A stretch of DNA of 64,000 nt from Saprospira grandis str. Lewin (GTDB lineage Bacteria; Bacteroidota; Bacteroidia; Chitinophagales; Saprospiraceae). Below are positions 1,700 through 61,880 of the stretch, one piece after another. The translations under genes were made by a program, and so were the position numbers. The notes below the pieces were generated by a model that ran no database searches, was not told the DNA's origin, and saw only the letters and a program-made list of their open reading frames with translations. Location: the NCBI RefSeq assembly GCF_000250635.1, contig NC_016940.1, positions 3,224,501-3,288,500 on the forward strand, read 5' to 3'. Position 1 is the stretch's first letter. Every line of letters starts with the position of its first letter.

Positions 1700-1852
1700 G
1701 GGCCCGCGGCCGCCCTTTTGAGTAGGGGCGGCCGCCGCTATGCTTCGGGGCTCGCTGCTCGCTCGGCCCTGCAGGCAGGCTTTGCCTGCCTTTGGTCTGG
1801 CCCTTCGGGCCACCCGCTCCGCAGCGCTGGGCCCTCAGCGGCCCTTCGGGCC
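1700..1852 (+). repeat. GC-rich composite repeat, type A
   Basis: First copy in the window and the reference for the family. It opens GGGCCCGCGGCC directly after a terminator T-run. A variable stem follows (GGCCGCCC, loop TTTTGAGTA, GGGCGGCC), then the type A string GCCGCTATG and the core ending GCTCGGCCCT. A second variable stem (GGCAGGC TTT GCCTGCC) comes next, then GGTCTG, a third stem (GGCCC TTC GGGCC) and the tail CACCCGCTCCGCAGCGCTGGGCC. All frames stay open through the block because it is GC-rich; that is not evidence for a protein. Confidence 0.85.
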
Positions 1853-1901
1853 TTCGCAGAAAAGCGGTATTCGTCGCTGCGCTCCTCATTCGTTTTCACG
1901 A

Positions 1902-1970
1902 CCCCGCCCACCCGCCCCTCCTCGGGAGTCCCTAAGGAATCCCTCAGGGGTACTGTTGGCGGGGTTTTTT
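1902..1970 (+). terminator. Terminator-like long-range stem carrying the IS insertion point
   Basis: CCCCGCC at 1902-1908 pairs with GGCGGGG at 1958-1964, and six T follow at 1965-1970. The 49-nt loop holds smaller inverted repeats. The first base of the IS is at 1972, immediately after this T-run. Moderate support because of the long loop. Confidence 0.5.
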
Positions 1971-1971
1971 A

Positions 1972-3329
1972 GAGACTGTTTAAAATTTTGTGTATGGGTT
2001 AAAAAAGGGGTAAAGATTAGGAGGTTTAATATCAATTTAATTACTTAGAAAAAAAGTACCGCTATGGACAAGAAACAAGAAGAGTTATTAAACCGCCTAC
2101 TAGGAGATGTGAAGAACATTGAGGAGCTAGACAAGCTAACAGATGACCTCAAAAAACGAGGAATTCAAAGTTTGTTAGAAGGAGAAATGTCAGCGCATTT
2201 AGGGTATGCTCGTGGCGAAGAAGTCCAAGGAGAAAATCGCAGAAATGGCCATTCTTCAAAGAAGATCAAGACGGAAAGTGGCAAATTACAAATAGAAATA
2301 CCAAGAGATCGAGAGGGTAAATTTGACCCTGTAACAGTCCCCAAACACAAATCGATGACGGCTAAGCTGGAGAGTGTGATTACACTATTGTATGCTAAAG
2401 GTATGAGCCTGTCTGATATAGTAGAGTATATGGATGAAATTTATGGTCAGCAGTACTCTAAGAGTCAAATTACAACCATTACTAATAGCCTCTTAGATAG
2501 TATTCGAGAGTGGCAAAATCGGGTTCTTGATGAGAAGTATGCGATTCTTTGGATTGATGGGATTCACTATAAAATTAGAGAGGATGGGCAGATTAAAAGC
2601 AAGGTTTGCATGATTGTACTTGGGGTTAATTTAGCAGGCTATCAAGACATTATTGGCATGTATCTCTTTGAAAAAGAGACTGCTGCAAATTGGGCCACAA
2701 CTTTGAATGACATTAAAACAAGAGGGGTAAAGGATGTTTTATTTATCTGCTCAGACAATCTAGCTGGCTTGGACCAAAGCGTTGAGGCCGTCTTTCCTCA
2801 GGCAGCTCATCAAATTTGTGTGGTCCATCAAATTCGCAATTCTATGAAGGTTGTTGAAGCCTCTAATAGAAGAAAAGTGGCCAAAGATATTAAGCTCATT
2901 TATACAGCTCCTAATGAAGCTGAGGCCAGAAATCGGCTTCAAGATTTTGAAGAAAAATGGGGTGATCGCTATCCTTACATCATTAAATCTTGGGAGAAAA
3001 ACTGGGACAATCTCACTGTCTTTTTATACTATCCTCAAGAAATCAGAAAGCTTATTTATACCACAAATATTATTGAAGGCTTTAATGCTGGCCTGAGAAA
3101 ATATACCAATAACAAACGCTCATTTCCAAATGATGCTGCGGCTATAAAATCTATCTATTTAGCCGCCATGCAAATTCAAAAACGATGGAAGGTCAAACGA
3201 GCTGGTTGGACCAAAGTTTTCAGCCAGCTTTGTGTCTGTTTCCCTGACAGAGTCATCTAAATTTTACCACTCGCCTCCTAGTCTCTATGACCAAATTTTA
3301 TTCTGATACACAAAATCCTGAACAGTCCC
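1972..3329 (+). mobile_element. IS256-family insertion sequence, copy 1 (1358 bp)
   Basis: The left end starts GAGACTGTTTAAAATTTTGT and the right end, read inward, starts GGGACTGTTCAGGATTTTGT; these are imperfect terminal inverted repeats of about 30 bp. One transposase gene fills the element. The flanking 8-mers are 1964-1971 (GTTTTTTA) and 3330-3337 (GGTTTTTA), an 8-bp target duplication with one mismatch. It agrees with copy 2 at 21196 except for a handful of base changes and one 1-bp indel. It is inserted right behind a terminator-like T-run. Confidence 0.9.
2064..3260 (+). CDS. IS256/Mutator-type transposase, 398 aa (copy 1)
   Basis: Catalyses cut- or copy-and-paste movement of the element by binding its terminal inverted repeats. 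The N-terminal residues 1-100 carry the typical KRGIQSLLEGEMSAHLGY segment of IS256 transposases. The DDE catalytic triad is visible: Asp165 in LWIDGIH, Asp231 in ICSDNLAGL and Glu338 in TTNIIEGFNAGL. The C-x2-H motif (Cys252, His255, in ICVVHQIRNS) follows the second Asp as in this family. Length is normal for the family and the frame is intact, so the protein is probably active. The start ATG lies 92 bp inside the left end. The protein is identical to that of copy 2; the few coding differences between the copies are all synonymous. Confidence 0.95.
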   Translation: MDKKQEELLNRLLGDVKNIEELDKLTDDLKKRGIQSLLEGEMSAHLGYARGEEVQGENRRNGHSSKKIKTESGKLQIEIPRDREGKFDPVTVPKHKSMTAKLESVITLLYAKGMSLSDIVEYMDEIYGQQYSKSQITTITNSLLDSIREWQNRVLDEKYAILWIDGIHYKIREDGQIKSKVCMIVLGVNLAGYQDIIGMYLFEKETAANWATTLNDIKTRGVKDVLFICSDNLAGLDQSVEAVFPQAAHQICVVHQIRNSMKVVEASNRRKVAKDIKLIYTAPNEAEARNRLQDFEEKWGDRYPYIIKSWEKNWDNLTVFLYYPQEIRKLIYTTNIIEGFNAGLRKYTNNKRSFPNDAAAIKSIYLAAMQIQKRWKVKRAGWTKVFSQLCVCFPDRVI

Positions 3330-3442
3330 GGTTTTTACAAAGAAACAACCCCATCTCCTAGGCCCTCAACTCCCAGGATTAAAAAACAACCGTCTAGCGC
3401 CCAGCTGCAGCCCAGCAACAAGCCTGGCCTTGCGCCAGCCTT

Positions 3443-3704
3443 CATCTGCAGTTGCAAAACGGTCCTATACAGTCGTTCAGAGGCAATCTGCAACTGCAAA
3501 ACAGCTCTGGGGAATCCCTGGAGCTAATCTGCAACTGCAAAACAGCTCTATACAGTTGTTCAGAGCTAATCTGCAACTGCAAAACGGCCCTATACAGTCG
3601 TTCAGAGGCAATCTGCAACTGCAAAACAGCTCTGGGGATTCCCCAGAGCTAATCTGCAACTGCAAAACAGCTCTATACAGTTGTTCAGAGCTAATCTGCA
3701 ATTT
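3443..3704. repeat. Tandem array, 41-42 bp units in a 125-bp higher-order repeat
   Basis: The string ATCTGCA starts at 3444, 3486, 3527, 3569, 3611, 3652 and 3694, giving steps of 42, 41, 42, 42, 41 and 42 bp. Each unit begins ATCTGCAACTGCAAAAC, followed by one of three 24-26 bp inserts in order A, B, C, A, B, C, so three units form a 125-bp repeat. Insert B of the second round is a near-perfect hairpin (AGCTCTGGGGA / TCCCCAGAGCT); insert C has AGCTCT / AGAGCT ends. The array starts 113 bp beyond the right end of IS copy 1. Not CRISPR: the inserts repeat. Confidence 0.9.
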
Positions 3705-3820
3705 ACAAACTCCTCCGGGCGTATCTCTAAGGTTCTATCTTTTTTTTCTGGACTCCCCCTACTATAGTTTAACTATAGCCGCTTAGAATCGAAATATAGC
3801 GGCCAACTAATTTTTGGACC

Positions 3821-3851
3821 AAAAAAAGGCGCAAAACTCAAGTTTTGCGCC
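3821..3851 (-). terminator. Terminator for the minus-strand gene ending at 3943
   Basis: A perfect 11-bp stem GGCGCAAAACT / AGTTTTGCGCC with loop CA lies at 3828-3851. Seven A at 3821-3827 read as a T-run on the minus strand. It sits 92 bp past the stop of the membrane-protein gene. Confidence 0.85.
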
Positions 3852-3942
3852 CTTAATGAGACCTTCCTCTAGGCTTCCTTTTTTTTGGACCAAAAGCGCC
3901 TCCTGTCCAAAGCGCATCTTTGGCTATACCAATTTTTAAGCC

Positions 3943-5415
3943 CTAAGACTCAAAAACAATCTTGCCCAGGCTATCATCTCCTCGATGCTCTTGGCGCAAA
4001 CGGCTCATTTCCTCTACCTCTTCCTTCAGGCGATCAAAGCGATAGACCAGTTGGTTTTGAGAATTTAAGCTCGACTCTCCCCCTAAGTCATGAATCACTT
4101 CCTGCATCAGGGCTTCTACCTGCTCCTCCTTGAGCTTCTCCTCGGTTTGGGCTTGGTCGTTGGCTACCTGGGTCAGCATCTTTAGACTAATAGGAACACG
4201 AACATGCTGAAAGATCACTTTCATCAATCGTTTGCGGGCATTTTCTTGCCGCTGCTTTCGCTTGAGGGGCAAGAGCCTAAAGTAGCGAAAAGCGGGAATC
4301 AAAAAGAAGAGCAGGGAATAAGTAAAGGGAATCGCCCCCAAAACGACTTGGGCCAAAAAGGGACCGTTCGCAATGGGAATATCAAATTCGGCAAAAAAGT
4401 TAGGCTGGGCCAAAAAGAAGAGCGAAAAAACCAAGTTCAAGCTATTCATGCCCACAATGGCCCAATTTCGTCCAGTTTTATTGCCCGTAAGTTCATATTC
4501 GGGCTCGTATTCATCCCAATAATAGATAATAGGGGCCTCATCGGGGCGGTTGGCCGAGCGGTTTAGCTGGCTAAAGTCGCCATAAAGGACCGCAGAACGC
4601 TCCGAAATCTTGGCTTGGCCATCATAACGGCCCAAAAGCTCTGTCATAAAGTTTTCGGCCTCATCTCTGCGCCAACCGGCCAAAGCCTGTAGCTCTGCAG
4701 TAGAAACCAAGCCCTTGTTTTCTTTTAGAAAACTGGCCACTTCTTTATGGTTAGCATAGGGATCTGGCTGATAGCGAACTGGTCCAAAAATAAAGTCATA
4801 AACAGAGGCCACAAAGCCTTTTTCCTCCTTAGAGCTTTTGCGATTTTTACGCAACTTGGCCAATTGGCCAGGCTTCTCTACATAATGTTTATAGGGATAA
4901 CCATAGTCGTCGCGGCTGCGGTAGGTATAATCATAGCCCAAAATGGTACTCCACTCAAAAATGGAGATAAAAACTCGAAAAAGGACCAAAAAGAGCTTGC
5001 CTATTCCCCCCGATTTACTATCATTATCTGAGTTGCCCCCTTGCGATAAGAGACCGACAATCAAAGCAATCAGGATGACCACAAAAAGCACAAAATAAAT
5101 GAGGAGAAAAACGGCCGTGACAATTCTATAGAAGATCTTGAAGCCTTTCCAGAACCAATCGGCAAACTCTGCTAGGCGTTCGCCAAAGCTTTTTTCTGTA
5201 CGGCGGTGCAGGCCCGTAAAATCATAGATTAAATCGCCATTTTCGGTCACTTTGAGCTTGCAATCGTAGCGTTGCATCAGCTCTCGAATAGCCGACTCGC
5301 TCTCAATAATAGGCATACCCGTACTAGCGGCAGCATCCTCTAGGGTAAATTGTTGGTTGCTTTTGAGCAAGTATTTTTCTAGGCGAAGATTGACTTCTTT
5401 TTGTTCGTATGACAT
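3943..5415 (-). CDS. Membrane protein with three winged-helix-like repeats, 490 aa
   Basis: Not a family I recognise. The start was set at ATG 5415 (MSYEQKEVNL); the open frame runs further upstream, but that part is translated GC repeat. Three similar cytosolic modules of about 60 residues are visible at residues 5-66, 222-282 and 395-461. Each has a helical segment, a helix-turn-helix-like stretch and a closing strand (NGDLIYDF, RSAVLYGDF, QNQLVYRF), which resembles a winged-helix fold. Hydrophobic segments at about 96-124, 143-156, 318-336 and 352-378 separate them. The protein could be a membrane-bound regulator or a multimerising scaffold; that is inference. Its own terminator follows at 3821. 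Confidence 0.75.
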   Translation of the reverse strand: MSYEQKEVNLRLEKYLLKSNQQFTLEDAAASTGMPIIESESAIRELMQRYDCKLKVTENGDLIYDFTGLHRRTEKSFGERLAEFADWFWKGFKIFYRIVTAVFLLIYFVLFVVILIALIVGLLSQGGNSDNDSKSGGIGKLFLVLFRVFISIFEWSTILGYDYTYRSRDDYGYPYKHYVEKPGQLAKLRKNRKSSKEEKGFVASVYDFIFGPVRYQPDPYANHKEVASFLKENKGLVSTAELQALAGWRRDEAENFMTELLGRYDGQAKISERSAVLYGDFSQLNRSANRPDEAPIIYYWDEYEPEYELTGNKTGRNWAIVGMNSLNLVFSLFFLAQPNFFAEFDIPIANGPFLAQVVLGAIPFTYSLLFFLIPAFRYFRLLPLKRKQRQENARKRLMKVIFQHVRVPISLKMLTQVANDQAQTEEKLKEEQVEALMQEVIHDLGGESSLNSQNQLVYRFDRLKEEVEEMSRLRQEHRGDDSLGKIVFES

Positions 5416-5429
5416 GGCTCCAATATTTG

Positions 5430-5584
5430 CGTTCCGAGGCGGCGAAGCCGCCGGCTTAGGGATGGATAGCGGTGCCGCGAAGCGGCAGACCAAAGTTTTT
5501 TGAGCGCAGCGAAAAAACTGCAGGGCCGAGCAGACCTGCGAGCCGCGGCACAGCCCGGCCCGCCCGCAGGGCGGGCAAGCCCCT
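5430..5584 (-). repeat. GC-rich composite repeat, type B, minus orientation
   Basis: Read on the minus strand it opens GGGGCTTGCCC directly after the terminator at 5585. It contains the exact core GCAGGTCTGCTCGGCCCT, then an AT-rich variable stem (AGTTTTTT ... AAAAAACT) and the stem GCCGC TTC GCGGC, and ends in a GCCGGCGGCTTCGCCGCC block. It separates the exonuclease gene from the membrane-protein gene and extends the latter's open frame artificially. Confidence 0.85.
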
Positions 5585-5618
5585 AAAAAAACAGCAGCCT
5601 AGAAAAATAGACTGCTGC
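5585..5618 (-). terminator. Terminator after the exonuclease gene
   Basis: On the minus strand CAGCAG (5618-5613) pairs with CTGCTG (5597-5592), and the stem extends part of the way inward. Seven T follow (A-run at 5585-5591). The gene stop is at 5627. Confidence 0.75.
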
Positions 5619-5626
5619 ATCTTGTT

Positions 5627-6211
5627 TTAGGTCCAGCCCAATTTCTGGAATAAGGTATAAATTTTTAGGCCCAAATAGGCATCTGTGGCGGCATAAAAGT
5701 TTTGGGCTTGGCTGAGGGGCTCTCGCTCCCAGTTCGAGGTCTGTTGGGATTTCGAAATCCGTTTGCCCAGAAAAATCGCCGTAAGATTGCGGGCCCCCAT
5801 TTGCTGAATGCCGTTGGCCTTGGCAATATCGGCAATGTCCTTAAAGCCCTTGGCTTTAAAGGGCCGCAGCCGCTGCAAATCACGGATGTCGTCTCGGAGA
5901 GCGGGGCCTGCCTTGACAATTTTGGGGTTCTCGAAGAGGGCCTTGAGGCCATCGCTAAAGCCAGATTTGAGGTTGCGAATCAGAAAAACCTTATCGGGCA
6001 TGGCCAATTGGATGAGCGAAACGGGATGATATTCGCCCTTGCGAAAAGAGGGTTTACTCTCGGTATCAAAGCCCAAAATTTTGCATTGATTGAGGGCCAA
6101 AAGGGCCTCTTCTAGCTGCTCTTCGGTTTCTATGGTAATAATTTCGCCCTCAAAATGCCAGAGGGGGAGTTCGTTGACCTCTGCTTTAGAGATCTTGACG
6201 GGGTATTGCAT
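5627..6211 (-). CDS. 3'-5' exonuclease domain protein (RNase D-like, DEDDy), 194 aa
   Basis: A DnaQ-like nuclease domain that removes nucleotides from 3' ends with two metal ions. Catalytic residues are visible in order: Asp49 and Glu51 in GFDTES (ExoI), Asp107/Asp108 in LRDDIRDL (ExoII), and Tyr173 with Asp177 in YAATDAY (ExoIII, the DEDDy pattern). There is no HRDC domain, so it is shorter than classical RNase D and matches the small stand-alone 3'-5' exonuclease proteins of Bacteroidota. It is 45 bp downstream of the MoxR-type ATPase gene and closed by its own terminator. Whether the substrate is RNA or DNA cannot be decided here. Confidence 0.85.
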   Translation of the reverse strand: MQYPVKISKAEVNELPLWHFEGEIITIETEEQLEEALLALNQCKILGFDTESKPSFRKGEYHPVSLIQLAMPDKVFLIRNLKSGFSDGLKALFENPKIVKAGPALRDDIRDLQRLRPFKAKGFKDIADIAKANGIQQMGARNLTAIFLGKRISKSQQTSNWEREPLSQAQNFYAATDAYLGLKIYTLFQKLGWT

Positions 6212-6256
6212 GTTAATGAGTTTATTGGGGCCGTTTTATGGCCCAAATGAGGTAGT

Positions 6257-7357: not shown

Positions 7358-7394
7358 ATAGTATTGTATTAGATAATCGTCAAGCTATTTTTTT

Positions 7395-7540
7395 GGGGCC
7401 TCCCGCCTTCGGCGGGCGCTACGTTTCGCAGCTCGCAAGTCTGCTCGGCCCTGCGGCGCGGGGCGCCTTGGTCTGGCCTACGGCCACTGCTCCACATCGC
7501 TAGGCCTGCGGCGGCTTCGCCGCCTGTCCGCTGCAAGTCC
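7395..7540 (+). repeat. GC-rich composite repeat, type C
   Basis: Opens GGGGCCTCCCGCC TTC GGCGGG, then the type C string CGCTACGTTTCGCAGCTCGC and core variant GCAAGTCTGCTCGGCCCT. The variable stem is built on GGCGC ... GCGCC, followed by TTGGTCTG, GGCC TAC GGCC and the tail CACATCGCTAGGCC. It touches the stop codon of the DUF5691 gene at 7541 and splits the SWIM/DUF5691/MoxR module. Confidence 0.85.
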
Positions 7541-9070: not shown

Positions 9071-9075
9071 AAAAC

Positions 9076-11457: not shown

Positions 11458-11700
11458 GGGGGCTGCCCCTTCCGCTGGGTTAAAACCCAGCGCAAAGCGG
11501 TATCGCTTTGCGAAGCTATATAAAATGAGGGTTGAAACCCTCATGAATTATCGGTCGGGTCGGGCTCTGTCGTGGCTTGCAGGTCTGCTCGGCCCTGCAC
11601 TGCCTTTGGCAGTTTGGTCTGCGGCTTCGCCGCCCCACTTTCCATCCCTCAGCCGAGTCGCTTCGCTCCTTGGCGGGCGCTTTGCGCCCTTTGGTCCAAA
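11458..11700 (+). repeat. GC-rich composite repeat, type B, with extra hairpin modules
   Basis: Longest single block. After GGGGGCTGCCCC three extra stems are inserted: CGCTGGGTTTTAACCCAGCG-type (11470-11492), CAAAGCG GTAT CGCTTTG and ATGAGGGTT GAA ACCCTCAT. The common part then resumes with GGTCGGGTCGGGCTCTG, the exact core, the stem CTGCC TTT GGCAG, TTTGGTCTG, CGGC TTC GCCG and CCATCCCTCAGCC. It shows that the variable positions accept whole new hairpins. Confidence 0.85.
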
Positions 11701-11930: not shown

Positions 11931-12047
11931 GGCCTAGCGATGTGTAAGGGTGGCCGTTAGGCCAGACCCAGCAGGCGAAGCCTGCGCAGGGCCGAGCAGA
12001 CCTGCGAGCCCTGAAACGTAGCGCCGCAGCTTTGCTGCGGAGGCCCC
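11931..12047 (-). repeat. GC-rich composite repeat, type C, minus orientation
   Basis: On the minus strand: GGGGCCTCCGCAGC AAA GCTGCGG, CGCTACGTTTCAGGGCTCGC, exact core, stem GCAGGC TTC GCCTGC, GGGTCTG, GGCC TAAC GGCC and CACATCGCTAGGCC. It lies 10 bp past the DUF3050 stop. Confidence 0.85.
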
Positions 12048-16865: not shown

Positions 16866-16953
16866 CGCTACTTTATTTCAAAGAAATTTTAGAATGGGCG
16901 CAAGATACAAAATTTGTAAGTTTTCTTTTTGTGCAGATCGAGGAGAAGAATTT

Positions 16954-17072
16954 GGGGCTGCCCCTTCCTGCGGTCGGGTCGGGCTGTGTCAGGGCTCGCA
17001 GGTCTGCTCGGCCCTGCGCGGGCTACGCCCGCTTGGTCTGGCCTAACGGCCACCCTTATCCATCCCTCAGCC
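16954..17072 (+). repeat. GC-rich composite repeat, type B
   Basis: GGGGCTGCCCC, GGTCGGGTCGGGCTGTG, exact core, stem GCGGGC TAC GCCCGC, TTGGTCTG, GGCC TAAC GGCC, CCATCCCTCAGCC. With the next block it fills the 433-bp gap between recR and the M42 gene; the two copies point toward each other across about 90 bp of unremarkable sequence. Confidence 0.85.
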
Positions 17073-17165
17073 AAATAAGGCAGCGCTGCGCGCCTTTTAA
17101 TAGTTAATTGGGCCGAAGCCGCCCGCCCAAAAGGGAACTAGCCCGATGAGCGGCCTACTTGCCTG

Positions 17166-17285
17166 TAGCAGGGCGGCGCAGCCGCCGACCCAGGGCTAAA
17201 CGAACTGCAGCCCGCAGGGCCGAGCAGGCCTGCGAGCTGCGAAAGGGAAGGACCCTAGGGCGCTTTGCGCCCTAGGGGAGGCCCC
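17166..17285 (-). repeat. GC-rich composite repeat, type C, minus orientation
   Basis: On the minus strand: GGGGCCTCCCC, a variable stem CTAGGGCGC AAA GCGCCCTAG, CTTTCGCAGCTCGC, core variant GCAGGCCTGCTCGGCCCT, then a divergent middle with GGGTCGG and CGGCTGCGCCGCC. It ends 15 bp before the M42 stop codon. Confidence 0.8.
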
Positions 17286-20993: not shown

Positions 20994-21126
20994 GGGGCCC
21001 GCGGCCAACTAGCTGAATGCTAGTTGGCCGCCGCTATGCTGCGGGGCTCGCAAGTCTGCTCGGCCCTTCGCTGGCTGCGCCAGCTCGGTCTGGCCTGCGG
21101 CCACCCGCTCCGCAGCGCTGGGCCGC
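20994..21126 (+). repeat. GC-rich composite repeat, type A
   Basis: GGGGCCCGC, opening stem GGCCAACTAGC / GCTAGTTGGCC, type A string GCCGCTATGCTGCGGGGC, core variant GCAAGTCTGCTCGGCCCT, stem GCTGGC TGC GCCAGC, CGGTCTG, GGCC TGC GGCC, CACCCGCTCCGCAGCGCTGGGCC. It lies between the SixA gene and the terminator hit by IS copy 2. Confidence 0.87.
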
Positions 21127-21195: not shown

Positions 21196-22554
21196 GAGAC
21201 TGTTTAAAATTTTGTGTATGGGCTAAAAAAGGGGTAAAGATTAGGAGGTTTAATATCAATTTAATTACTTAGAAAAAAAGTACCGCTATGGACAAGAAAC
21301 AAGAAGAGTTATTAAACCGCCTACTAGGAGATGTGAAGAACATTGAGGAGCTAGACAAGCTAACAGATGACCTCAAAAAACGAGGAATTCAAAGTTTGTT
21401 AGAAGGAGAAATGTCAGCGCATTTAGGGTATGCTCGTGGCGAAGAAGTCCAAGGAGAAAATCGCAGAAATGGCCATTCTTCAAAGAAGATCAAGACGGAA
21501 AGTGGCAAATTACAAATAGAAATACCAAGAGATCGAGAGGGTAAATTTGACCCTGTAACAGTCCCCAAACACAAATCGATGACGGCTAAGCTGGAGAGTG
21601 TGATTACACTATTGTATGCTAAAGGTATGAGCCTGTCTGATATAGTAGAGTATATGGATGAAATTTATGGTCAGCAGTACTCTAAGAGTCAAATTACAAC
21701 CATTACTAATAGCCTCTTAGATAGTATTCGAGAGTGGCAAAATCGGGTTCTTGATGAGAAGTATGCGATTCTTTGGATTGATGGGATTCACTATAAAATT
21801 AGAGAGGATGGGCAGATTAAAAGCAAGGTTTGCATGATTGTACTTGGGGTTAATTTAGCAGGCTATCAAGACATTATTGGCATGTATCTCTTTGAAAAAG
21901 AGACTGCTGCAAATTGGGCCACAACTTTGAATGACATTAAAACAAGAGGGGTAAAGGATGTTTTATTTATCTGCTCAGACAATCTAGCTGGCTTGGACCA
22001 AAGCGTTGAGGCCGTCTTTCCTCAGGCAGCTCATCAAATTTGTGTGGTCCATCAAATTCGCAATTCTATGAAGGTTGTTGAAGCCTCTAATAGAAGAAAA
22101 GTGGCCAAAGATATTAAGCTCATTTATACAGCTCCTAATGAAGCTGAGGCCAGAAATCGGCTTCAAGATTTTGAAGAAAAATGGGGTGATCGCTATCCTT
22201 ACATCATTAAATCTTGGGAGAAAAACTGGGACAATCTCACTGTCTTTTTATACTATCCTCAAGAAATCAGAAAGCTTATTTATACCACAAATATTATTGA
22301 AGGCTTTAATGCTGGCCTGAGAAAATATACCAATAACAAACGCTCATTTCCAAATGATGCTGCGGCCATAAAATCTATCTATTTAGCCGCTATGCAAATT
22401 CAAAAACGATGGAAGGTCAAACGAGCTGGTTGGACCAAAGTTTTCAGCCAGCTTTGTGTCTGTTTCCCTGACCGGGTCATCTAAATTTTACCACTCGCCT
22501 CCTAGTCTCTATTGACCAAATTTTATTCTGATACACAAAATCCTGAACAGTCCC
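21196..22554 (+). mobile_element. IS256-family insertion sequence, copy 2 (1359 bp)
   Basis: Same ends as copy 1. A perfect 8-bp target duplication GTTTTGCG flanks it (21188-21195 and 22555-22562), which fixes the element borders. It differs from copy 1 by one base near the left end, four bases in the gene and one extra T near the right end (CTCTATTGACC). The intact duplication and near-identity to copy 1 mean recent movement. Confidence 0.95.
21288..22484 (+). CDS. IS256/Mutator-type transposase, 398 aa (copy 2)
   Basis: Protein identical to the copy at 2064, including the DDE triad (Asp165, Asp231, Glu338) and the C-x2-H pair. Coding differences seen: GCT/GCC and GCC/GCT in Ala codons near residues 362-370, and AGA/CGG in the Arg codon three residues from the end, all silent. 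Confidence 0.95.
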   Translation: MDKKQEELLNRLLGDVKNIEELDKLTDDLKKRGIQSLLEGEMSAHLGYARGEEVQGENRRNGHSSKKIKTESGKLQIEIPRDREGKFDPVTVPKHKSMTAKLESVITLLYAKGMSLSDIVEYMDEIYGQQYSKSQITTITNSLLDSIREWQNRVLDEKYAILWIDGIHYKIREDGQIKSKVCMIVLGVNLAGYQDIIGMYLFEKETAANWATTLNDIKTRGVKDVLFICSDNLAGLDQSVEAVFPQAAHQICVVHQIRNSMKVVEASNRRKVAKDIKLIYTAPNEAEARNRLQDFEEKWGDRYPYIIKSWEKNWDNLTVFLYYPQEIRKLIYTTNIIEGFNAGLRKYTNNKRSFPNDAAAIKSIYLAAMQIQKRWKVKRAGWTKVFSQLCVCFPDRVI

Positions 22555-23118: not shown

Positions 23119-23240
23119 GGCCTAGCGATGTGCAGCAGTGGCGCGCAGCGCCAGACCGAGCCGCTGAAAGCGGCGAAGGGCCGAGCGAACAGCGAGCTGC
23201 GGAACGTAGCGCCGCAAGGCGAAGCCGCAGCGGAGGCCCC
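23119..23240 (-). repeat. GC-rich composite repeat, type C, minus orientation
   Basis: On the minus strand: GGGGCCTCCGC, stem GCGGCTTCGCCTTGCGGC, GCTACGTTCCGCAGCTCGC, the second core variant GCTGTTCGCTCGGCCCT, stem CGCCGCTTTCAGCGGC, TCGGTCTG, GGCGC TGC GCGCC and CACATCGCTAGGCC. Confidence 0.83.
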
Positions 23241-31429: not shown

Positions 31430-31546
31430 TGGGGCTGCCCACTCGCTTCGCTCGGGTCGGGCTGTTTCGCAGCTCGCTGTTCGCTCGGCCCTTCAGCGCT
31501 GCGCGCTTCGGTCTGGCCCTGCGGGCCACTGCTGTCCATCCCTCAG
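31430..31546 (+). repeat. GC-rich composite repeat, type B
   Basis: GGGGCTGCCC, stem ACTCG CTT CGCTCGGGT, CGGGCTGTTTCGCAGCTCG, second core variant GCTGTTCGCTCGGCCCT, stem region AGCGCTGCGCGCT, TCGGTCTG, GGCCC TGC GGGCC, CCATCCCTCAGCC. It forms an inverted pair with the block at 31801. Confidence 0.85.
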
Positions 31547-31800
31547 CCAGATTTAATCGCGCTGCTTTGGCCATAGTTTGCTATGAATTTTTGGCTAGGC
31601 CAGCTATTTTTTAAGGGCATAGCCTTCGCTATGGCCGAGAAAAATAGGGCCGACTAGCGGGAAATTGCTGCAAACTATAAAAGTGAGTGCGTTTAAATCT
31701 GGCTATTGCCTGCGGCGCTTCGCGCCTGTAGGGCGCAGATTTGGACCTCATCAATATATTATTGCGTAGCAATACCGCTTTAAAGGGCCGAAGGCCCGCG
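31547..31800. other. Hairpin-rich spacer between two inverted repeat blocks
   Basis: No gene. It contains CCATAG TTTG CTATG (31571-31585), nested stems GGCCAGCTATTTTTT / AAAAATAGGGCC (31598-31652) enclosing GGCATAGC CTTC GCTATGGCC, and TATTGC GTA GCAATA (31757-31775). Its outer part shares CAGATTTGGACCT with sequence at 47612. Together with its flanking blocks it is about 490 bp of near-continuous inverted repeats. Confidence 0.6.
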
Positions 31801-31920
31801 GCTGAGGGGCTGTAGCAGGGCCGCCGAAGGCGGCAGACCCAGCGGGCGCAGCCCGCGCAGGGCCGAGCAGACCTGCGAGCTGCGCAATGGCCCGACCCGC
31901 CCGCAGGGCGGGGCAGCCCC
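31801..31920 (-). repeat. GC-rich composite repeat, type B, minus orientation
   Basis: On the minus strand: GGGGCTGCCCC, GCCC TGC GGGCGGGTCGGGC, CATTGCGCAGCTC, exact core, stem GCGGGC TGC GCCCGC, TGGGTCTG, CCGCC TTC GGCGG, and CCCCTCAGCCGC. Confidence 0.85.
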
Positions 31921-32008
31921 AAAAAATTAAGAAAAATAGAAGGAAGATATTTGGGTTTTAGATTTCCCTTGGGCTGCTTATCTTTGGAGCTTATATAAAA
32001 AATGAAAC

Positions 32009-36229: not shown

Positions 36230-36420
36230 GGGGCTGCCCCGCGCGGCCAACTGCGGCCCAAGGGCCTTGTTGGCGCTTAGGTCGCTCCACTTCGCAGCTC
36301 GCAAGCCTGCTCGGCCCTGCAGGCTTTTTCGCTTTGCTTCAAAAGCCTTGGGTCTGCCGCCTTCGGCGGCCCTGCTTCGGCAGCTCAGCCTGCGGCGGCT
36401 TCGCCGCCTGTCCGCCGCAG
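36230..36420 (+). repeat. GC-rich composite repeat, type B variant
   Basis: GGGGCTGCCCC, an extra stem around GCGGCCAACTGCGGCC and AAGGGCCTTGTTGGC, then TAGGTCGCTCCACTTCGCAG, core variant GCAAGCCTGCTCGGCCCT, long stem AGGCTTTT TCGCTTTGCTTC AAAAGCCT, GGGTCTG, GCCGCC TTC GGCGGC and a GCGGCGGCTTCGCCGCC end. The CTCCACTT form is shared with the block at 44252. Confidence 0.83.
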
Positions 36421-37567: not shown

Positions 37568-37719
37568 GCGGCGCAGCCGCTAGGGCCCGAAGGGCCCATG
37601 GCTGAGGGATGGAAAGTGGTGCGGCGCAGCCGCAGACCCAGCGGGCGAAGCCCGCGCAGGGCCGAGCAGACCTGCGAGCCACGGCACAGCCCGACCCGCC
37701 CGCAGGGCGGGGCAGCCCC
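37568..37719 (-). repeat. GC-rich composite repeat, type B, minus orientation
   Basis: On the minus strand: GGGGCTGCCCC, GCCC TGC GGGCGGGTCGGGC, TGTGCCGTGGCTC, exact core, stem GCGGGC TTC GCCCGC, TGGGTCTG, CGGC TGC GCCG, CATCCCTCAGCC, GGGCCC TTC GGGCCC, CGGCTGCGCCGCC. It lies between the small RNAs and the terminator of the giant gene. Confidence 0.87.
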
Positions 37720-37732
37720 AAAAAAAGAAAAT

Positions 37733-42912: not shown

Positions 42913-43112
42913 GGGGCCTCCCGCCTGCGGCGGGCGCTACGTTTCGCAGCTCGCTATTCGCTCGGCCCTGCAGCGGCTGCGCCGCTTTGGTCTGGCCCTG
43001 CGGGCCACTGCTGCACATCGCTAGGCCGGGCGCTACTGCGCATCGGTTACTCCCTTCGGTCGTCGAACTGCGGCCTAAAGGCCTTGTTGTGGCCGGGCGC
43101 TTCGCGCCCCCA
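42913..43112 (+). repeat. GC-rich composite repeat, type C, with GTCGTCGAACTGCG module
   Basis: GGGGCCTCCCGCC TGC GGCGGG, CGCTACGTTTCGCAGCTCGC, core variant GCTATTCGCTCGGCCCT, stem GCGGC TGC GCCGC, TTGGTCTG, GGCCC TGC GGGCC, CACATCGCTAGGCC; then GTTACTCCCTTCGGTCGTCG, AACTGCGGCC TAAA GGCC and TTGTTGT, closing with GGGCGC TTC GCGCCC. Confidence 0.85.
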
Positions 43113-44251: not shown

Positions 44252-44410
44252 GGTCCTACAGGCCCGAAGGGCCGCAGGCTGAGCTGCCGAAGCAGGGCCG
44301 CCGAAGGCGGCAGACCCAAGGCTTTTGACGCAAAGCGAAAAAGCCTGCAGGGCCGAGCAGACTTGCGAGCTGCGAAGTGGAGCGACCCGCCCGCAGGGCG
44401 GGGCAGCCCC
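44252..44410 (-). repeat. GC-rich composite repeat, type B variant, minus orientation
   Basis: On the minus strand: GGGGCTGCCCC, GCCC TGC GGGCGGGTCGCTCCAC, TTCGCAGCTC, core variant GCAAGTCTGCTCGGCCCT, stem AGGCTTTT TCGCTTTGCGTC AAAAGCCT, GGGTCTG, GCCGCC TTC GGCGGC, TGC TTCG GCA, then GGCCC TTC GGGCC. Shares the CTCCACTT form with the 36230 block. Confidence 0.85.
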
Positions 44411-44417
44411 AAAAAAA

Positions 44418-47456: not shown

Positions 47457-47610
47457 GGGGCTGCCCACTCGCTTCGCTCGGGTCGGGCTGTTTCGCAGCT
47501 CGCTGTTCGCTCGGCCCTGCGCAAAATTTCGCTGTGCTCATTTTGCTTGGTCTGCGGCTTCGCCGCCCTGCTGTCCATCCCTCAGCCTGCGGCCCTTCGG
47601 GCCTGTAGGA
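47457..47610 (+). repeat. GC-rich composite repeat, type B
   Basis: GGGGCTGCCC, ACTCG CTT CGCTCGGGT, CGGGCTGTTTCGCAGCTCG, core variant GCTGTTCGCTCGGCCCT, AT-rich stem GCAAAAT ... ATTTTGC, TTGGTCTG, CGGC TTC GCCG, CCATCCCTCAGCC, GGCCC TTC GGGCC. The first 60 bases are nearly identical to the block at 31430. Confidence 0.87.
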
Positions 47611-49270: not shown

Positions 49271-49417
49271 TATTGGCCCAGCGCTGCGCAGCGGTGGCCG
49301 AAGGCCAGACCGAACAAAACGAGCCTTGGCGAAGTTTTGTGAAGGGCCGAGCAGACCTGCGAGCCGCGCAGCATAGCGGCGGCCGACCTAGCCGAAGGCT
49401 AGCCGGCCGCGGGCCCC
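49271..49417 (-). repeat. GC-rich composite repeat, type A, minus orientation
   Basis: On the minus strand: GGGGCCCGC, opening stem GGCCGGCTAGCC TTC GGCTAGGTCGGCC, GCCGCTATGCTGCGCGGCTC, exact core, AT-rich stem ACAAAAC ... GTTTTGT, CGGTCTG, GGCC TTC GGCC, ACCGCTGCGCAGCGCTGGGCC. Confidence 0.87.
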
Positions 49418-52155: not shown

Positions 52156-52307
52156 AGGCGCGAAGCGCCTTGGCTGAGGGATGGAAAGTGGGGCGGCGAA
52201 GCCGCAGACCCAAGTTTTTGAGCGTAGCGAAAAAAACTGCAGGGCCGAGCAGACCTGCGAGCCACGACAGAGCCCGACCCAAGGCCGAAGGCCGCAGGGG
52301 CAGCCCC
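52156..52307 (-). repeat. GC-rich composite repeat, type B, minus orientation
   Basis: On the minus strand: GGGGCTGCCCC, TGCGGCC TTC GGCC, TTGGGTCGGGCTCTG, TCGTGGCTC, exact core, AT-rich stem AGTTTTT ... AAAAACT, GGGTCTG, CGGC TTC GCCG, CATCCCTCAGCC, GGCGC TTC GCGCC. It follows metG by 22 bp. Confidence 0.87.
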
Positions 52308-54698: not shown

Positions 54699-54729
54699 GC
54701 TCTCTTTTTTTGACTATTACTTATCTTTT

Positions 54730-54970
54730 GGGGCCTCCGCTGCGGCTTCGCCTTGCGGCGCTACGTTTACTCCCTTCAGTCGTCGAACTGCGGACTAAAG
54801 TCCTTGTTGTCGCAGCTCGCTGCTGTTTTTGTGGGGCCTCCGCCTCCCTTCGGTCGTCGGCGCTACGTTTCGCAGCTCGCTGTTCGCTCGGCCCTGCGGC
54901 CTGACGGCCTTGGTCTGCGGCTGCGCCGCACTGCTCCACATCGCTAGGCCTGCGGCGGCTTCGCCGCCTG
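54730..54970 (+). repeat. GC-rich composite repeat, type C, double block with GTCGTCGAACTGCG module
   Basis: Two units in a row. The first (54730-54830) has GGGGCCTCCGC, CGGCGCTACG and then the module GTTTACTCCCTTCAGTCGTCG, AACTGCGGAC TAAA GTCC, TTGTTGTCGCAGCTCGCTG. The second (54835-54970) is complete: GGGGCCTCCGCC, CGGCGCTACGTTTCGCAGC, core variant GCTGTTCGCTCGGCCCT, GGCC TGAC GGCC, TTGGTCTG, CGGC TGC GCCG, CACATCGCTAGGCC, GCGGCGGCTTCGCCGCC. It ends 26 bp before the CHAT gene. Confidence 0.85.
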
Positions 54971-54996
54971 CTTTCTCCAATTACAGCAAATCGCCT

Positions 54997-57507: not shown

Positions 57508-57518
57508 TTTGCAGGGGA

Positions 57519-57665: not shown

Positions 57666-57671
57666 AACCAT

Positions 57672-57707
57672 AAAAAAAGAGCAGATACCTTTAACCGTAT
57701 CTGCTCT
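57672..57707 (-). terminator. Terminator of gcvP
   Basis: An 11-bp perfect stem AGAGCAGATAC / GTATCTGCTCT with loop CTTTAACC (plus reading); seven A at 57672-57678 form the minus-strand T-run, 28 bp past the stop. Confidence 0.92.
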
Positions 57708-57734
57708 ATCTAATTTAAGGCTATGCTTTAGCCA

Positions 57735-60662
57735 TTAAGCCTCGCATTCTGCTTCATTTTCATAGCTGCTGAGCGGGGGACAAGTACAAATCAGGTTTTT
57801 GTCGCCATAGGCGCCATTGACCCGATGCACAGAGGCCCAAAATTTATTCTCCCGCACAAAGGGGAGGGGATAAGCGGCTTTGCTTCTGGAGTAGCTATGG
57901 CTCCATTCATCGGCACTGAGCTCGTGAATAGTATGCGGCGAATTGATTAAGACATTATCTTCTGTACTAGCGGCACCGCTGGCAATTTCATCAATCTCTC
58001 GGCGGATTTGCAAAAGCGCATCGCAAAAGCGGTCTAGCTCAGCCTTATCTTCCGATTCGGTGGGCTCAATCATGATGGTACCCGCCACCGGGAAGGAAAG
58101 GGTAGGGGCATGAAAGCCATAATCGATGAGGCGCTTGGCCACATCTTCTGCAGAAACATGCAACTGCTTAAATTTGCGCAAATCAATGATCAATTCATGA
58201 GCTGCCCGACCTTTTTCGCCAGTATACAATACATCATAATCTTGCTCCAAACGGGCCTTGATGTAGTTGGCGGTTAGAATCGCATAGGCCGTGGCATCGG
58301 TACAACCCTGCGCCCCCAACATACGGATGTAGCCATAAGAAATGAGCAAAATACTAGCCGATCCCCAGGGGGCTGCAGCCACCGCTTTGGTGCCCTGGAC
58401 TCCACCTACCTGATCAGAAATATAGTGCTTGGGCAAGAAAGGCTTAAGCTTATCATTGACGCAGATGGGGCCCATGCCAGGTCCACCGCCCCCATGCGGA
58501 ATCGCAAAGGTTTTGTGCAGGTTCAAATGGCAAACATCGGCGCCAATGAGGCCTGGAGCCGTTAGGCCCACCTGCGCATTCATATTGGCCCCATCCATAT
58601 AGACCAGCCCGCCGCAATCGTGAATCTTTTGGCAAATCTCCTGAATGGCCGTCTCAAATACCCCATGCGTAGAGGGATAAGTAACCATTAGGCAAGAGAG
58701 CTGATCCTTATATTTGTCGGCCTTTTTATGGAGGTCCTCCACATCAATATTGCCCTTTTCATCGCATTTTACCACCACGACCTTCATGCCAGCCATTACC
58801 GCAGAGGCGGGGTTGGTGCCATGGGCCGAAGAGGGAATCAAGGCAATGTTGCGCTGCGATTGCTCATGGGCCAAATGATAGGCCCGAATGCTGAGCAAAC
58901 CGCTGTATTCTCCCTGCGCACCAGAGTTAGACTGTAGCGAACAGGCGGTAAATCCAGTAATGTCAGATAAATAACGCTCCAATTCATCAAAGATTTGCAG
59001 ATAGCCCTCCGCCTGATCTAAGGGTGCAAAAGGGTGCATCTGACTAAAGGCGGGCCAAGAAACGGGAATCAATTCGCTGGCCGCATTCAATTTCATGGTA
59101 CATGATCCCAAAGAAATCATAGAGTGGACCAAAGACAAATCTTTATTTTCCAAGCGCTTGATATAACGCATCATCTGGCTCTCTGACTGATAGCTATTAA
59201 AGACGGGATGCTGCAAATAATCGCTTTCTCTTTGGAGCTGTTCAGGAATTTTAGGCGAGGCAAAAGCAGCTGCATAACGTTCGGCCAATTGCTCGGCTGT
59301 AGCCTCCAATTTTTGTCCCTTGAGTTGGGCAAATAGATTAACCAATTGGGCAATGTCTGTCAATTTTGTGCTTTCGTCTACCGAAATTTGCACATAACGG
59401 CCCAGATCATAAAACAAGTTGATTTCTTGGGCCAAAGCCAATTCCCGCAGCTTATCCTGCTCGGCCTTTTCCAAGACATCAATTCGCAAGGTATCAAAAT
59501 AGGCTTTGTTTAGTTGCTGAAAGCCCAAACGGCTCAACTCGGCCTCCAAAAGCTGCGCATGTCGATGGATATTCTGGGCAATTTTGCGAATGCCATCAGG
59601 TCCGTGATAAACGGCATACATACTCGCCATAATGGCCAACAAAGCCTGGGCGGTACAGATATTAGAGGTGGCCTTATCTCGGCGAATATGCTGCTCTCTG
59701 GTTTGTAGGGCCATCCGCAAAGCGGGCTGCCCTTTTTGGTCCAAAGACATTCCAATAATACGGCCCGGAATCTGACGGACAAACTCCTCTTTGGTCGCAA
59801 AATAAGCAGCATGAGGTCCACCAAAACCCATAGGCACCCCAAAGCGCTGCGTATTGCCCACTACGGCATCGGCACCCCATTCTCCAGGGGCTTTTAATAA
59901 GGCGAGGCTCATCAAATCGGCGGTTACAATAACATAAATACCCGCAGCTTTGGCTCGTTCTACTGTGGCCCGAAGGTCCTTCACTTCTCCTCTAGAGTTG
60001 GGGTATTGCAACAAAATCGCAAAGATTTTGGGCTCCTTAAAGCGCATGCGCTCCGGATCGGCCACGGCAATTTCTATCCCCAAAGGCTCGGCTCTGGTCT
60101 TGAGTACGTCTAGAGTCTGTGGATAAATTTCTCGGCTAACCAAAAGTTGGTTGGCTGGATTTTTCTTGTTTTTCCGATTCTTAATTCCATAAAACATCGT
60201 CATGGCCTCGGCCGCAGCAGTGGCTTCATCCAATAAAGAGGCATTGGCTACGGGCAAAGCCGTCAAATCACTGACCATCGTCTGATAGTTGAGCAAAGCC
60301 TCCAAACGCCCCTGGGCAATCTCCGCCTGATAGGGGGTATACTGGGTATACCATCCCGGATTCTCAAAGATGTTACGCAAAATGACATTGGGCGTCAGCG
60401 TATGATAATAGCCCTGACCAATATAGCTTTTGTATAGCTTGTTTTTGGCGGCGATTTCTTTGAGCTCGGCCAAATAGTCCGATTCAGAAAGGGCCGCAGG
60501 CAGTTGCAAGGGCGTTGCTCTTCTAATGTTTTCAGGGATAGTCTCCGCAATAAGGGCCTCTAAAGACGGAAGGCCAATTTGCTTCAACATATCTTGAAGC
60601 TCTGTTGCATTTGGTCCAATATGACGCTGCACAAAACGATCGGGATGCTGGAAAATAGACAT
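57735..60662 (-). CDS. gcvP: Glycine dehydrogenase (decarboxylating), P-protein of the glycine cleavage system, 975 aa
   Basis: PLP enzyme that decarboxylates glycine and passes the aminomethyl group to the H-protein lipoyl arm. Full-length single-chain form: the N-terminal half starts RHIGPNATELQDMLKQIGLPSLE, with GQGYYHTLTPNVILRNIFENPGWYT and PQRFGVPMGFGGPHAAYFAT. The C-terminal half carries the PLP lysine in HLNLHKTFAIPHGGGGPGMGPI (about residue 717). GcvT and GcvH genes are not in the window. Solitary gene with a clear terminator. No glycine riboswitch could be recognised upstream. Confidence 0.97.
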   Translation of the reverse strand: MSIFQHPDRFVQRHIGPNATELQDMLKQIGLPSLEALIAETIPENIRRATPLQLPAALSESDYLAELKEIAAKNKLYKSYIGQGYYHTLTPNVILRNIFENPGWYTQYTPYQAEIAQGRLEALLNYQTMVSDLTALPVANASLLDEATAAAEAMTMFYGIKNRKNKKNPANQLLVSREIYPQTLDVLKTRAEPLGIEIAVADPERMRFKEPKIFAILLQYPNSRGEVKDLRATVERAKAAGIYVIVTADLMSLALLKAPGEWGADAVVGNTQRFGVPMGFGGPHAAYFATKEEFVRQIPGRIIGMSLDQKGQPALRMALQTREQHIRRDKATSNICTAQALLAIMASMYAVYHGPDGIRKIAQNIHRHAQLLEAELSRLGFQQLNKAYFDTLRIDVLEKAEQDKLRELALAQEINLFYDLGRYVQISVDESTKLTDIAQLVNLFAQLKGQKLEATAEQLAERYAAAFASPKIPEQLQRESDYLQHPVFNSYQSESQMMRYIKRLENKDLSLVHSMISLGSCTMKLNAASELIPVSWPAFSQMHPFAPLDQAEGYLQIFDELERYLSDITGFTACSLQSNSGAQGEYSGLLSIRAYHLAHEQSQRNIALIPSSAHGTNPASAVMAGMKVVVVKCDEKGNIDVEDLHKKADKYKDQLSCLMVTYPSTHGVFETAIQEICQKIHDCGGLVYMDGANMNAQVGLTAPGLIGADVCHLNLHKTFAIPHGGGGPGMGPICVNDKLKPFLPKHYISDQVGGVQGTKAVAAAPWGSASILLISYGYIRMLGAQGCTDATAYAILTANYIKARLEQDYDVLYTGEKGRAAHELIIDLRKFKQLHVSAEDVAKRLIDYGFHAPTLSFPVAGTIMIEPTESEDKAELDRFCDALLQIRREIDEIASGAASTEDNVLINSPHTIHELSADEWSHSYSRSKAAYPLPFVRENKFWASVHRVNGAYGDKNLICTCPPLSSYENEAECEA

Positions 60663-60865
60663 CGGCGTTTAGCTTTTGAGCAAAATAAAATTTTGCCTTT
60701 TTTAAAGAGTTGAGTTGATACTTACTACTTCTTTGGTTTTTAACTGCTTAAGTAGTCAAAGGGTAAGAACGGTTAGCTGTGCCACAAAGCTAAATTTTTT
60801 AGACTAGATTCTAAACCGCTTTGCCCTAAAAAACAGATTTATCTACACAATGTTTTTCCTTTTTT

Positions 60866-61005
60866 GGGGCCCGCGGCCAGCAAGGCTGGCCGCCGCTATG
60901 CTGCGGGGCTCACAGGTCTGTTCGGCCCTTCGCTGGCTTCGCCAGCTCGGTCTGGCCTTCGGCCACCCCTCCGCAGCGCTGGGCCTGCGGCGGCTTCGCC
61001 GCCTG
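60866..61005 (+). repeat. GC-rich composite repeat, type A
   Basis: GGGGCCCGC, opening stem GGCCAGC AAG GCTGGCC, GCCGCTATGCTGCGGGGCTC, core variant ACAGGTCTGTTCGGCCCT, in which both arms of the small GCAG/CTGC palindrome changed together, stem GCTGGC TTC GCCAGC, CGGTCTG, GGCC TTC GGCC, CCGCAGCGCTGGGCC, GCGGCGGCTTCGCCGCC. Confidence 0.88.
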
Positions 61006-61073
61006 CTAAACCCCCTAAAGGCCCAATTGTTACCAATAAGTTAAAGTGCTGACTTAATGAACTTATCGCTAAA

Positions 61074-61455
61074 GGCTAATGAGCTAGCTTTTTGTTAGCT
61101 CAAGCTAGGATTTTGCTAGCTCGACCTAGCTTTTTGTTAGCTCGACCTCAGATATTCCTAGCTCGACCTAGCTTTTAGTTAGCTCGACTTCAGGTATTCC
61201 TAGCTCGACCTAGCTTTTAGTTAGCTCGACCTCAGCTGTTCCTAGCTCGACCTAGCTTTTTGTTAGCTCGACCTTAGGTATTCCTAGCTCGACCTAGCTT
61301 TTTGCTAGCTCGACCTTAGGTATTTCTAGCTCAACCTAGCTTTTTGTTAGCTCGACCTTAGCTGTTCCTAGCTCAACCTAGCTTTTAGTTAGCTCGACCT
61401 CAGCTGTTCCTAGCTCGACCTAGCTTTTAGTTAGCTCAAGCTAAGACGCTACTAG
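61074..61455. repeat. Tandem array, nine 42-bp units (CTAGCTCGACC family)
   Basis: CTAGCTCGACC (or CTAGCTCAACC) starts at 61116, 61158, 61200, 61242, 61284, 61326, 61368 and 61410, exactly 42 bp apart, with degenerate half-units at both ends. Each unit has two AGCTCGACCT motifs, 20-22 bp apart, separated by AGCTTTTTGTT or AGCTTTTAGTT and by a variable CAGATATTC / CAGCTGTTC stretch. Several frames contain TAG, so it is not coding. The array ends about 10 bp before the MITE. Confidence 0.93.
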
Positions 61456-61464
61456 CTTTTTTTA

Positions 61465-61730
61465 GGGACTGTTCAGGATTTTGTGTATCAGAATGAAATT
61501 TGGGCCTTAGCTGGCTAGGATTTGGCCAATAGTCGCCTAGGGGCTTGTCCCCTAGCGGGCTAAAGCCCTTGTTTGCTGATAGGGCCTAGGAAAAGAGAAA
61601 ATCCCCTCGAATGAGGGGATGGCAATTTTTTAGTTAGCCTAGGGCCTTGGCCCTAGGGTTTCTATAAATTTTAGGAGAGGAATATATAGTAGGCAGCAAA
61701 AAGGGCAGACACAAAATTTCAAACAGTCTC
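61465..61730 (-). mobile_element. 266-bp MITE derived from the IS256-type element
   Basis: The left border begins GGGACTGTTCAGGATTTTGT, the right inverted repeat of the IS. The other border, read inward, begins GAGACTGTTTGAAATTTTGT, the left inverted repeat (one mismatch in 20). No transposase; the interior holds small stems (CCTAGGGGCTTGTCCCCTAG, GGGCTAAAGCCC, ATCCCCTCGAATGAGGGGAT, CCTAGGGCCTTGGCCCTAGG). It is reversed relative to the two IS copies. A clear target duplication is not visible. Confidence 0.85.
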
Positions 61731-61742
61731 CGAAAAATTCGT

Positions 61743-61880
61743 CCTACAGGCCCGAAGGGCCGCAGGCCTAGGGGCCTGAAAGGGGGCGGCGCAGCCGCAG
61801 ACCAAGGAGCCGAAGGCGACGCAGGGCCGAGCAGACCTGCGAGCCCTGAAAGGGCCCGGCCGCCGAAGGCGGCAGGCCCC
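61743..61880 (-). repeat. GC-rich composite repeat, type C-like, minus orientation
   Basis: On the minus strand: GGGGCCTGCCGCC TTC GGCGG, CCGGGCCCTTTCAGGGCTC, exact core, stem GTCGCCTTCGGCTCC (weak), TTGGTCTG, CGGC TGC GCCG, CCCCTAGGCC, GGCCC TTC GGGCC. It begins 12 bp from the MITE end. Confidence 0.8.

Follow-up and report, generated by a model that had tools for sequence, protein, structure and literature searches.

The closest described systems to the one treated here are the repetitive extragenic palindromic (REP) sequences and the bacterial interspersed mosaic elements (BIMEs). According to PMC3733652 and PMC2817692 a REP is a palindrome of 20-40 bp with a terminal GTAG or CGTC tag, often found near genes for REP-associated tyrosine transposases (RAYTs), and an E. 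coli RAYT is reported to cleave REP DNA that is single-stranded and folded. We have analyzed a family of folded intergenic elements in a 64-kb stretch of the marine predatory bacterium Saprospira grandis str. Lewin (positions 3,224,501-3,288,500 of its contig of 4.35 Mb; below, the window). An original prediction, made from the letters of the window, had given a BIME-like element as one of three readings, and as an analogy this fits. Both are intergenic, mosaic, palindromic and present in very many copies, and both have sub-families with alternative complementary stem residues. Both alternate in orientation, inside the BIME in one case and in the other for 100 of 112 Saprospira neighbours, mostly kilobases apart with genes between them. 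The Saprospira element differs from a REP in being about 120 bp long with several helices (P1, H1, P3, H0, H2 and H3), and its ends carry no GTAG or CGTC tag (CGTC occurs solely in a nested module at some sites). A further difference is that no repeat-flanked RAYT gene was found in the genome. In the 1.5-kb flanks of the only PF01797 (Y1 transposase) gene there is one element, which stands on one side at a distance of about 1.2 kb; a RAYT-driven REP origin was rejected because this single gene is not bracketed by elements.

With regard to the terminal inverted repeats of miniature inverted-repeat transposable elements (MITEs) and insertion sequences, the Saprospira element has short complementary ends, which are the P1 stem. 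Correia and BOX elements are likewise composite, intergenic, foldable and of similar size; we know of no covarying long-range stem, fixed-site cassette swapping or chromosome-wide alternation in them, nor of any described parallel to orientation alternating along a bacterial chromosome with genes between. To our knowledge no conserved multi-helix core exists in the palindromic repeats of organelles. Those of Volvox and of sponge mitochondria are similar in being many hairpin-forming repeats in intergenic DNA, and the abstract on Volvox calls its repeats apparently selfish. Literature searches gave no paper on the Saprospira elements, two older S. grandis genome papers being outside their scope; the genome announcement of S. 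grandis WH does not mention such repeats, and Saprospira is not named in the main texts of PMC3733652, PMC12306157, PMC13155455 and PMC2817692.

By a covariance model the window contains 21 elements (E up to 2.5e-9), and both strands carry them. All 21 blocks that had been listed are present, in both orientations, and the core strings named for them were found directly in their places. The model was built from 36 copies found by a parser and is thus a second method not fully independent of it. The strict pattern GCTCGGCCCTKCN{8,36}GGTCTG, searched on both strands, has 1,277 copies in the S. grandis genome (G000; 634 forward and 643 reverse), where the reversed pattern used as control has 0 hits, and 1,266 and 1,255 copies in two sister Saprospira genomes (G001 and G002). 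The elements occupy 3.8% of the 2.36 Mb examined; about 5% had been claimed for the window. They are indeed intergenic, since only 12 of 682 elements with a parsed extent lie in an open reading frame (ORF) called by a home-made ORF caller. Parsed extents are mostly 104-143 bp and reach about 200 bp, with TTT-GGGGC and (C/A/G)(A/G)GCC as end sequences. The parser rows leave out 36 core hits missing core5 or H3, and 52 of 734 elements have no head. A 3' half is present for 578 of 582 5' halves, and no ORF-bearing autonomous version was seen in the four that lack one nearby, each read over 220 bases.

The copies show a fold in which an outer stem, P1, encloses the hairpin H1 and a long arm, P3a/P3b, ending in a junction with H3, H2 and the short H0; they also show that pairing and core are conserved and that stem sequences are free. 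When 24 named pairs are followed in 36 copies of equal hairpin lengths, 95.7% of the cells are paired, 164 cells are changed on both sides (60.7 in shuffles) and 0 on one side only, which is strong covariation. Among 226 copies, pairs of P3b, H2, H3, P1 and P3a have some of the highest column couplings, together with the columns of two alternative core-loop forms; the stem pairs are mostly 92-100% Watson-Crick, with P3a11/t-13 at just 58%. The 4-bp stem P3b joins two arms separated by about 80 bases. It is paired in 653 of 734 elements (mean 250 and maximum 291 in 1,000 shuffles), and this with sequences as unrelated as GCAG/CTGC, GGGG/CCCC, AGGG/CCCT, GTGG/CCAC and GCCG/CGGC. The statement that the stems always pair is therefore right in that pairing is far above shuffle and too strong in that 81 of the 734 P3b blocks are imperfect. 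It should be noted that the parser selects H3 by pairing, which makes the percentages for H3 circular, and that the position of the P3b 3' arm depends on H3.

For P1, a first search for the head used the tail; it was repeated with the head defined solely by TTT-GGG(G..)-C and the tail unused. In 603 of 640 elements the two bases past this tail-blind head are complementary to those of the tail, against a mean of 222 and a maximum of 260 in shuffles, 73 elements without such a head and 21 without a tail being left out. Head and tail covary, as had been predicted, and the types in which they do so are more than the three originally described. Two position pairs show strong covariation but no Watson-Crick pairing, one at the foot of H2 (G-G, G-T, T-C, T-T, G-A) and one, u9/t5, in P3a of the relatives treated below (T-G/C-T), which suggests conserved non-canonical contacts.

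In the following, sense is the strand read in the original prediction and antisense its complement. For 238 elements, with RNA and DNA parameters, the antisense strand has the joint fold of P1, P3b, H2 and H3 as its minimum-energy structure in 22-25% of cases and the sense strand in 1-3%; P1 is part of the minimum-energy structure in 80-85% vs 37-47%. The consensus fold has an energy of -40.1 on the antisense strand and -36.0 on the other; the antisense fold recovers P1, P3a, P3b, H3, H2 and H0, but one H1 pair only, and has both-side changes at 19 of 30 pairs. One P3a pair reads U-A/U-G/C-G on the antisense strand but U-A/C-A/C-G on the sense strand, and in 9,212 cells (P3b, H3, the outer four H2 pairs and P3b of the wide set described below) G-T occurs 68 times on the antisense against 25 times on the sense strand. 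These predictions support the complement of the strand originally read as the best-folding one, and the sense strand was set aside as the folded one after comparing both strands by minimum-energy and consensus folds. The commonest H3 loops on the antisense strand are GAA (109), GCA (66), AAA (18) and GTA (15 of 238).

The sites of the elements were compared by matched flanks between 944 kb of G000 and stretches of G001 (820 kb) and G002 (600 kb); 133 and 148 elements in the stretches compared with G001 and G002, respectively, had no matched flanks. An element is kept at 150 of 161 matched sites in G001, 149 of them in the same orientation, and at 135 of 146 in G002, all 135 in the same orientation, with an identity to G000 at four-fold degenerate sites of 81.7% and 62.3%. 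Among the 143 one-to-one pairs with G001, H2 differs in 65%, H3 in 59%, the P3b 5' arm in 33% and the element type in 13%; among the 129 with G002 the corresponding values are 90%, 75%, 43% and 21%. The two arms of P3b have changed together in 39 (G001), 51 (G002) and, in a third comparison, 46 cases, and one arm has changed alone in 12, 11 and 15. For 93 changed H2 cassettes the G000 form recurs elsewhere in the same sampled genome in 57 cases and the G001 form in 47. This comparison of sequences shows that hairpins are exchanged as whole cassettes at matched sites. No core was found at 11 of 161 (G001) and 11 of 146 (G002) sites. An earlier, smaller set had 22 core-less comparisons, and the 18 that were read are variants, nested hairpin modules, partial deletions or unalignable DNA. 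The orthologous sites are thus shared to a large extent, and clean presence against absence was not seen among these 18 cases; one site (G002b 57297 vs G000) is possibly empty, its edges not being clean. That the elements are under selection for secondary structure, as had been proposed, is supported by the double changes lacking one-sided intermediates, by the joint change of the P3b arms and by a strict-pattern copy number unchanged at 0.62 four-fold identity. In three species, each with over 1,200 copies in its genome, the fold is kept with stem sequences that turn over faster than the DNA around them, and selection on a nucleic-acid fold therefore becomes directly measurable.

The fixed positions just described and the alternating orientation are additions to what had been noticed before. 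An element is found in 577 of 849 intergenic gaps of at least 150 bp; for tandem gaps of 150-300 bp the count is 134 of 207. Orientation alternates in 620 of 728 neighbours found by the parser, through gaps of all kinds, and in 100 of 112 neighbours found by the covariance model over 344 kb (binomial p 1e-18), where the longest alternating run is 25 (shuffle mean 7, maximum 18 in 2,000 shuffles); in the window 17 of 20 neighbours alternate. Intervals between head-facing neighbours hold 2.74 genes on average and those between tail-facing neighbours 1.01, and the head side is the one nearer a gene (medians 44 and 87 bp vs 163 and 256 bp for the tail side). Pairs less than 600 bp apart with no gene between are tail-to-tail in 82 of 85 cases, and these close pairs combine a B-class with an A/C-class element in 57 cases vs 6, with 19 unclassed. 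Head-facing neighbours show no class rule: their twelve commonest pair types, which make up 256 of 310 intervals, divide as 106 to 112. Spacing is more even than for random intergenic slots in three orthologous stretches (G000b, G001b and G002b), with a coefficient of variation (CV) of 0.48-0.50 vs 0.71-0.74, and is less distinct in the stretch G000a (CV 0.66 vs 0.78 +- 0.08).

Purging of adjacent direct repeats was thought a weak explanation for the alternation, because second neighbours are direct repeats anyway and because genes in same-orientation intervals are about as conserved as others (orthologues in the G002 stretch for 35 of 35 and 10 of 13, others 201 of 220 and 76 of 93). Tail-facing intervals as a cargo cassette are also a weak candidate. 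In the sampled part of G000 multi-copy genes are 12 of 137 genes in tail-facing and 4 of 339 in head-facing intervals, so that 12 of 18 multi-copy genes are tail-facing; this pattern is not repeated in G001, whose 4 multi-copy genes are all outside tail-facing intervals, or in G002, which has none.

Among 37 further relatives searched with the strict pattern, G003 and G004, which are labelled as the same genus, have no hit, and of the other 35 one (G013, of another genus) has a single hit, which is an element. The covariance model matches 24 times in G013, where five matches read at their places are elements too, and 3 times and once in two more genomes. Copies thus occur in other genera of the family as well. 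With a 23-base pattern and one genome per species 98 stretches were obtained; the 80 of them listed are labelled Saprospiraceae, Saprospira, Phaeodactylibacter or Lewinella, with one Chitinophagales and one Sphingobacteriia bacterium. In this wide set 101 of 107 elements were aligned, the six without a tail being left out. Their P3b covaries and their stems are unlike those of Saprospira; likeness inside the 23 bases is partly due to selection by that pattern. Of 199 genomes sampled from the family, 18 (including three of Saprospira) have hits of a looser core pattern, single hits being unread; they represent 14 of 112 genera. Among 395 genomes sampled across the class, this pattern has hits in the S. 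grandis genome and in one other of the same family.

The model which we tentatively prefer, and which we hold to be possible without calling it probable, is that of a noncoding intergenic element selected as a polar folded DNA boundary or anchor, with stems reshuffled by recombination between copies. The step from the arrangement of the elements to their function is one that we infer. The swaps would arise as the many copies undergo non-crossover recombination (gene conversion) with one another, and most of those that break the fold would be lost to selection. The least certain step is the mode of action, in which the element may serve as a polar boundary or anchor of the DNA itself, antiparallel neighbours bracketing one to few genes. 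Strand-specific structure, conserved core, fixed oriented sites and alternation argue for such a boundary- or anchor-like element, and antiparallel anchors would explain the indifference to gene direction, the alternation of neighbours and the two structural classes in close pairs. The alternation points to a rule either of chromosome organisation or of element insertion. A more far-reaching version, which we regard as unlikely, is that more than 1,000 alternately oriented folded anchors might split the chromosome into antiparallel-bracketed segments of one to few genes, in the manner of oriented loop-anchor or insulator sites; stem classes that can be exchanged would perhaps let close neighbours fold separately. 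The analogy is to the convergent CTCF loop anchors of animals, which are also oriented sites with neighbours facing each other; the Saprospira elements differ in being bacterial and in having intervals of few kilobases.

A number of observations weigh against the anchor model. The elements of the three Saprospira genomes are orthologous and not independent, and chromosome-wide alternation is seen in these three genomes only. In five genomes of four other genera, with 35 elements in about 375 kb, 11 of 17 neighbours alternate, and G003 and G004 have no match by pattern or covariance model, the latter genome being 90% complete. In Saprospira itself 12 of 112 neighbours do not alternate. As to the fold, further pair types in the 36-copy set number 20, below every shuffle (24.3); on either strand at least 75% of copies have a minimum-energy structure other than the full fold, and even on the antisense strand this structure contains P3b in only 34-37%. 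When H2 is counted whole, to the loop, the wobble bias is the opposite, with 35 sense G-T vs 9 A-C. The core loop is not frozen, its form GCAGGTCTG falling from 48% in G000 to 20% in G002, and the joint change of the P3b arms could also reflect a bimodal length of conversion tracts. Exact shared runs are of median 13 in close pairs vs 14 in random pairs, which does not help an argument from cross-pairing, so that a need to fold separately is one reading only. Finally, elements in tandem gaps lie at a median distance of 70 bp from stops and 124 bp from starts, as a role in transcripts would also predict.

Such a role, in which the element would be carried in transcripts from either side as a two-way protector of mRNA ends, a processing site or a terminator, seems doubtful to us. 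It would fit the nearness of stop codons, the occupancy of gaps of 150-300 bp (56 of 72 convergent vs 11 of 53 divergent gaps hold an element), the conservation of internal loops and some G-U pairing on one of the strands. It is at variance with the lack of any orientation bias to the transcribed strand in tandem gaps, where 219 elements are sense and 224 antisense to the genes (13 and 12 in the wide set), with the 93 elements in divergent gaps, with an alternation that continues through gaps of every kind and with the few cells (68 of 9,212) having G-T on the folded strand. Rfam 15 gave 0 matches at the gathering threshold in the window; a relaxed search with one element gave six sub-threshold matches with E 0.33 or worse, and seven loci of relatives gave 0 at E up to 1. 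The structured RNA suggested originally, if carried in mRNA, is not supported, there being no gene-orientation bias and no Rfam match above threshold. A tRNA-derived origin was set aside as ARAGORN finds no tRNA gene in the window.

It is likewise unlikely, in our judgement, that the elements are REP- or MITE-like non-autonomous mobile elements, acting as folded single-stranded DNA, which inserted 3' of T-tracts, perhaps as inverted pairs, and are now immobile or very slow. In the 613 elements that have just one candidate head, TTT does precede it (94, 97 and 94% at positions -1 to -3); the ends are complementary, hits extend to the 14 of 112 genera mentioned above, and copies occur on two Saprospira plasmid records and on small contigs of G000 and G001; moreover, most H3 loops of the folded strand have the form GNA, a loop with special stability in DNA. 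However, 92-93% of matched sites are shared, a 3' half is lacking for just 4 of 582 5' halves, the genome has one Y1 transposase gene with its single element about 1.2 kb off, and a lone insertion between alternating neighbours would break the alternation. The earlier proposal of a substrate for a recombinase or transposase, if taken as currently mobile, is not supported, in view of the same shared sites and of the 18 absent cases, which include no clean empty site and one that is unclear; a mobile origin in the past is conceivable. Viral carriage was rejected, four pattern hits in IMG/VR being taken as chance because their flanks show nothing else of the element. Neutral proliferation of functionless hairpins homogenised by gene conversion is to us quite improbable. 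Cassette exchange is real, and core-loop frequencies drift between species; H2 is also shared above random (0.7%) by head-facing and same-orientation neighbours (5.2, 7.5 and 10.9%), with tail-facing neighbours sharing it hardly at all (1.3 and 0%). Against neutrality stand a strict-pattern copy number kept at 0.62 four-fold identity, the pairing that is kept, the alternating orientation and the close pairs of two classes.

The elements of the window are given here with their strand and with their extent, the evidence being parser and covariance model unless stated otherwise. Type A, with a GGGCCC head and a GGGCC tail, occurs at 1700..1833 (+; 1706-1833 by the covariance model), 20994..21124 (+; 21001-21124 by the model), 49275..49417 (-; 49275-49405 by the model) and 60866..60985 (+). 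Type B is found at 5453..5584 (-), 16953..17072 (+), 31431..31548 (+), 37600..37720 (-), 47457..47587 (+) and 52172..52307 (-; 52172-52295 by the model), and at 11458..11654 (+; 11534-11654 by the model) with a long H1 region that has other hairpins between head and P3. A type B2 element at 31800..31921 (-; covariance model) is tail-to-tail with 31431..31548, and a B-group element whose tail reads GCCCCT-AGGCC lies at 61765..61880 (-; covariance model). The type C elements are at 7395..7506 (+), 11931..12047 (-; tail-to-tail with 11458..11654), 23119..23240 (-; covariance model, the parser extent being longer, to 23339), 42913..43027 (+) and 54833..54950 (+; the parser extends to 54730). Unclassed elements lie at 17152..17285 (-; 17152-17273 by the model, tail-to-tail with 16953..17072), 36261..36390 (+; the parser extends to 36144) and 44277..44411 (-).

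Some elements have a second hairpin module nested in them, or in place of their interior with the outer parts kept. This module reads GGTTACTCCC..GGTCGTCGAACTGC-[variable stem]-TTGTTGT; examples from alignments of G000 and G001 are near 317693 and 341300 of G000 C1. A further hairpin is often found just past the tail, from a small set (TGCGGCGGCTTCGCCGCCTG, TGCGGCCCTTCGGGCCTG, GTTTGGCCTTCGGCC), and may be part of the element. Two window genes, 2064-3260 and 21288-22484, both in tail-facing intervals, have products of 398 aa that start alike and that we take to be transposase-like. A very long tandem-repeat stretch lies at 141.6-153.4 kb of G000 C1 and 82.2-102.2 kb of G001 C2; its match starts step by about 71 bp, and identity between both genomes is about 71%.

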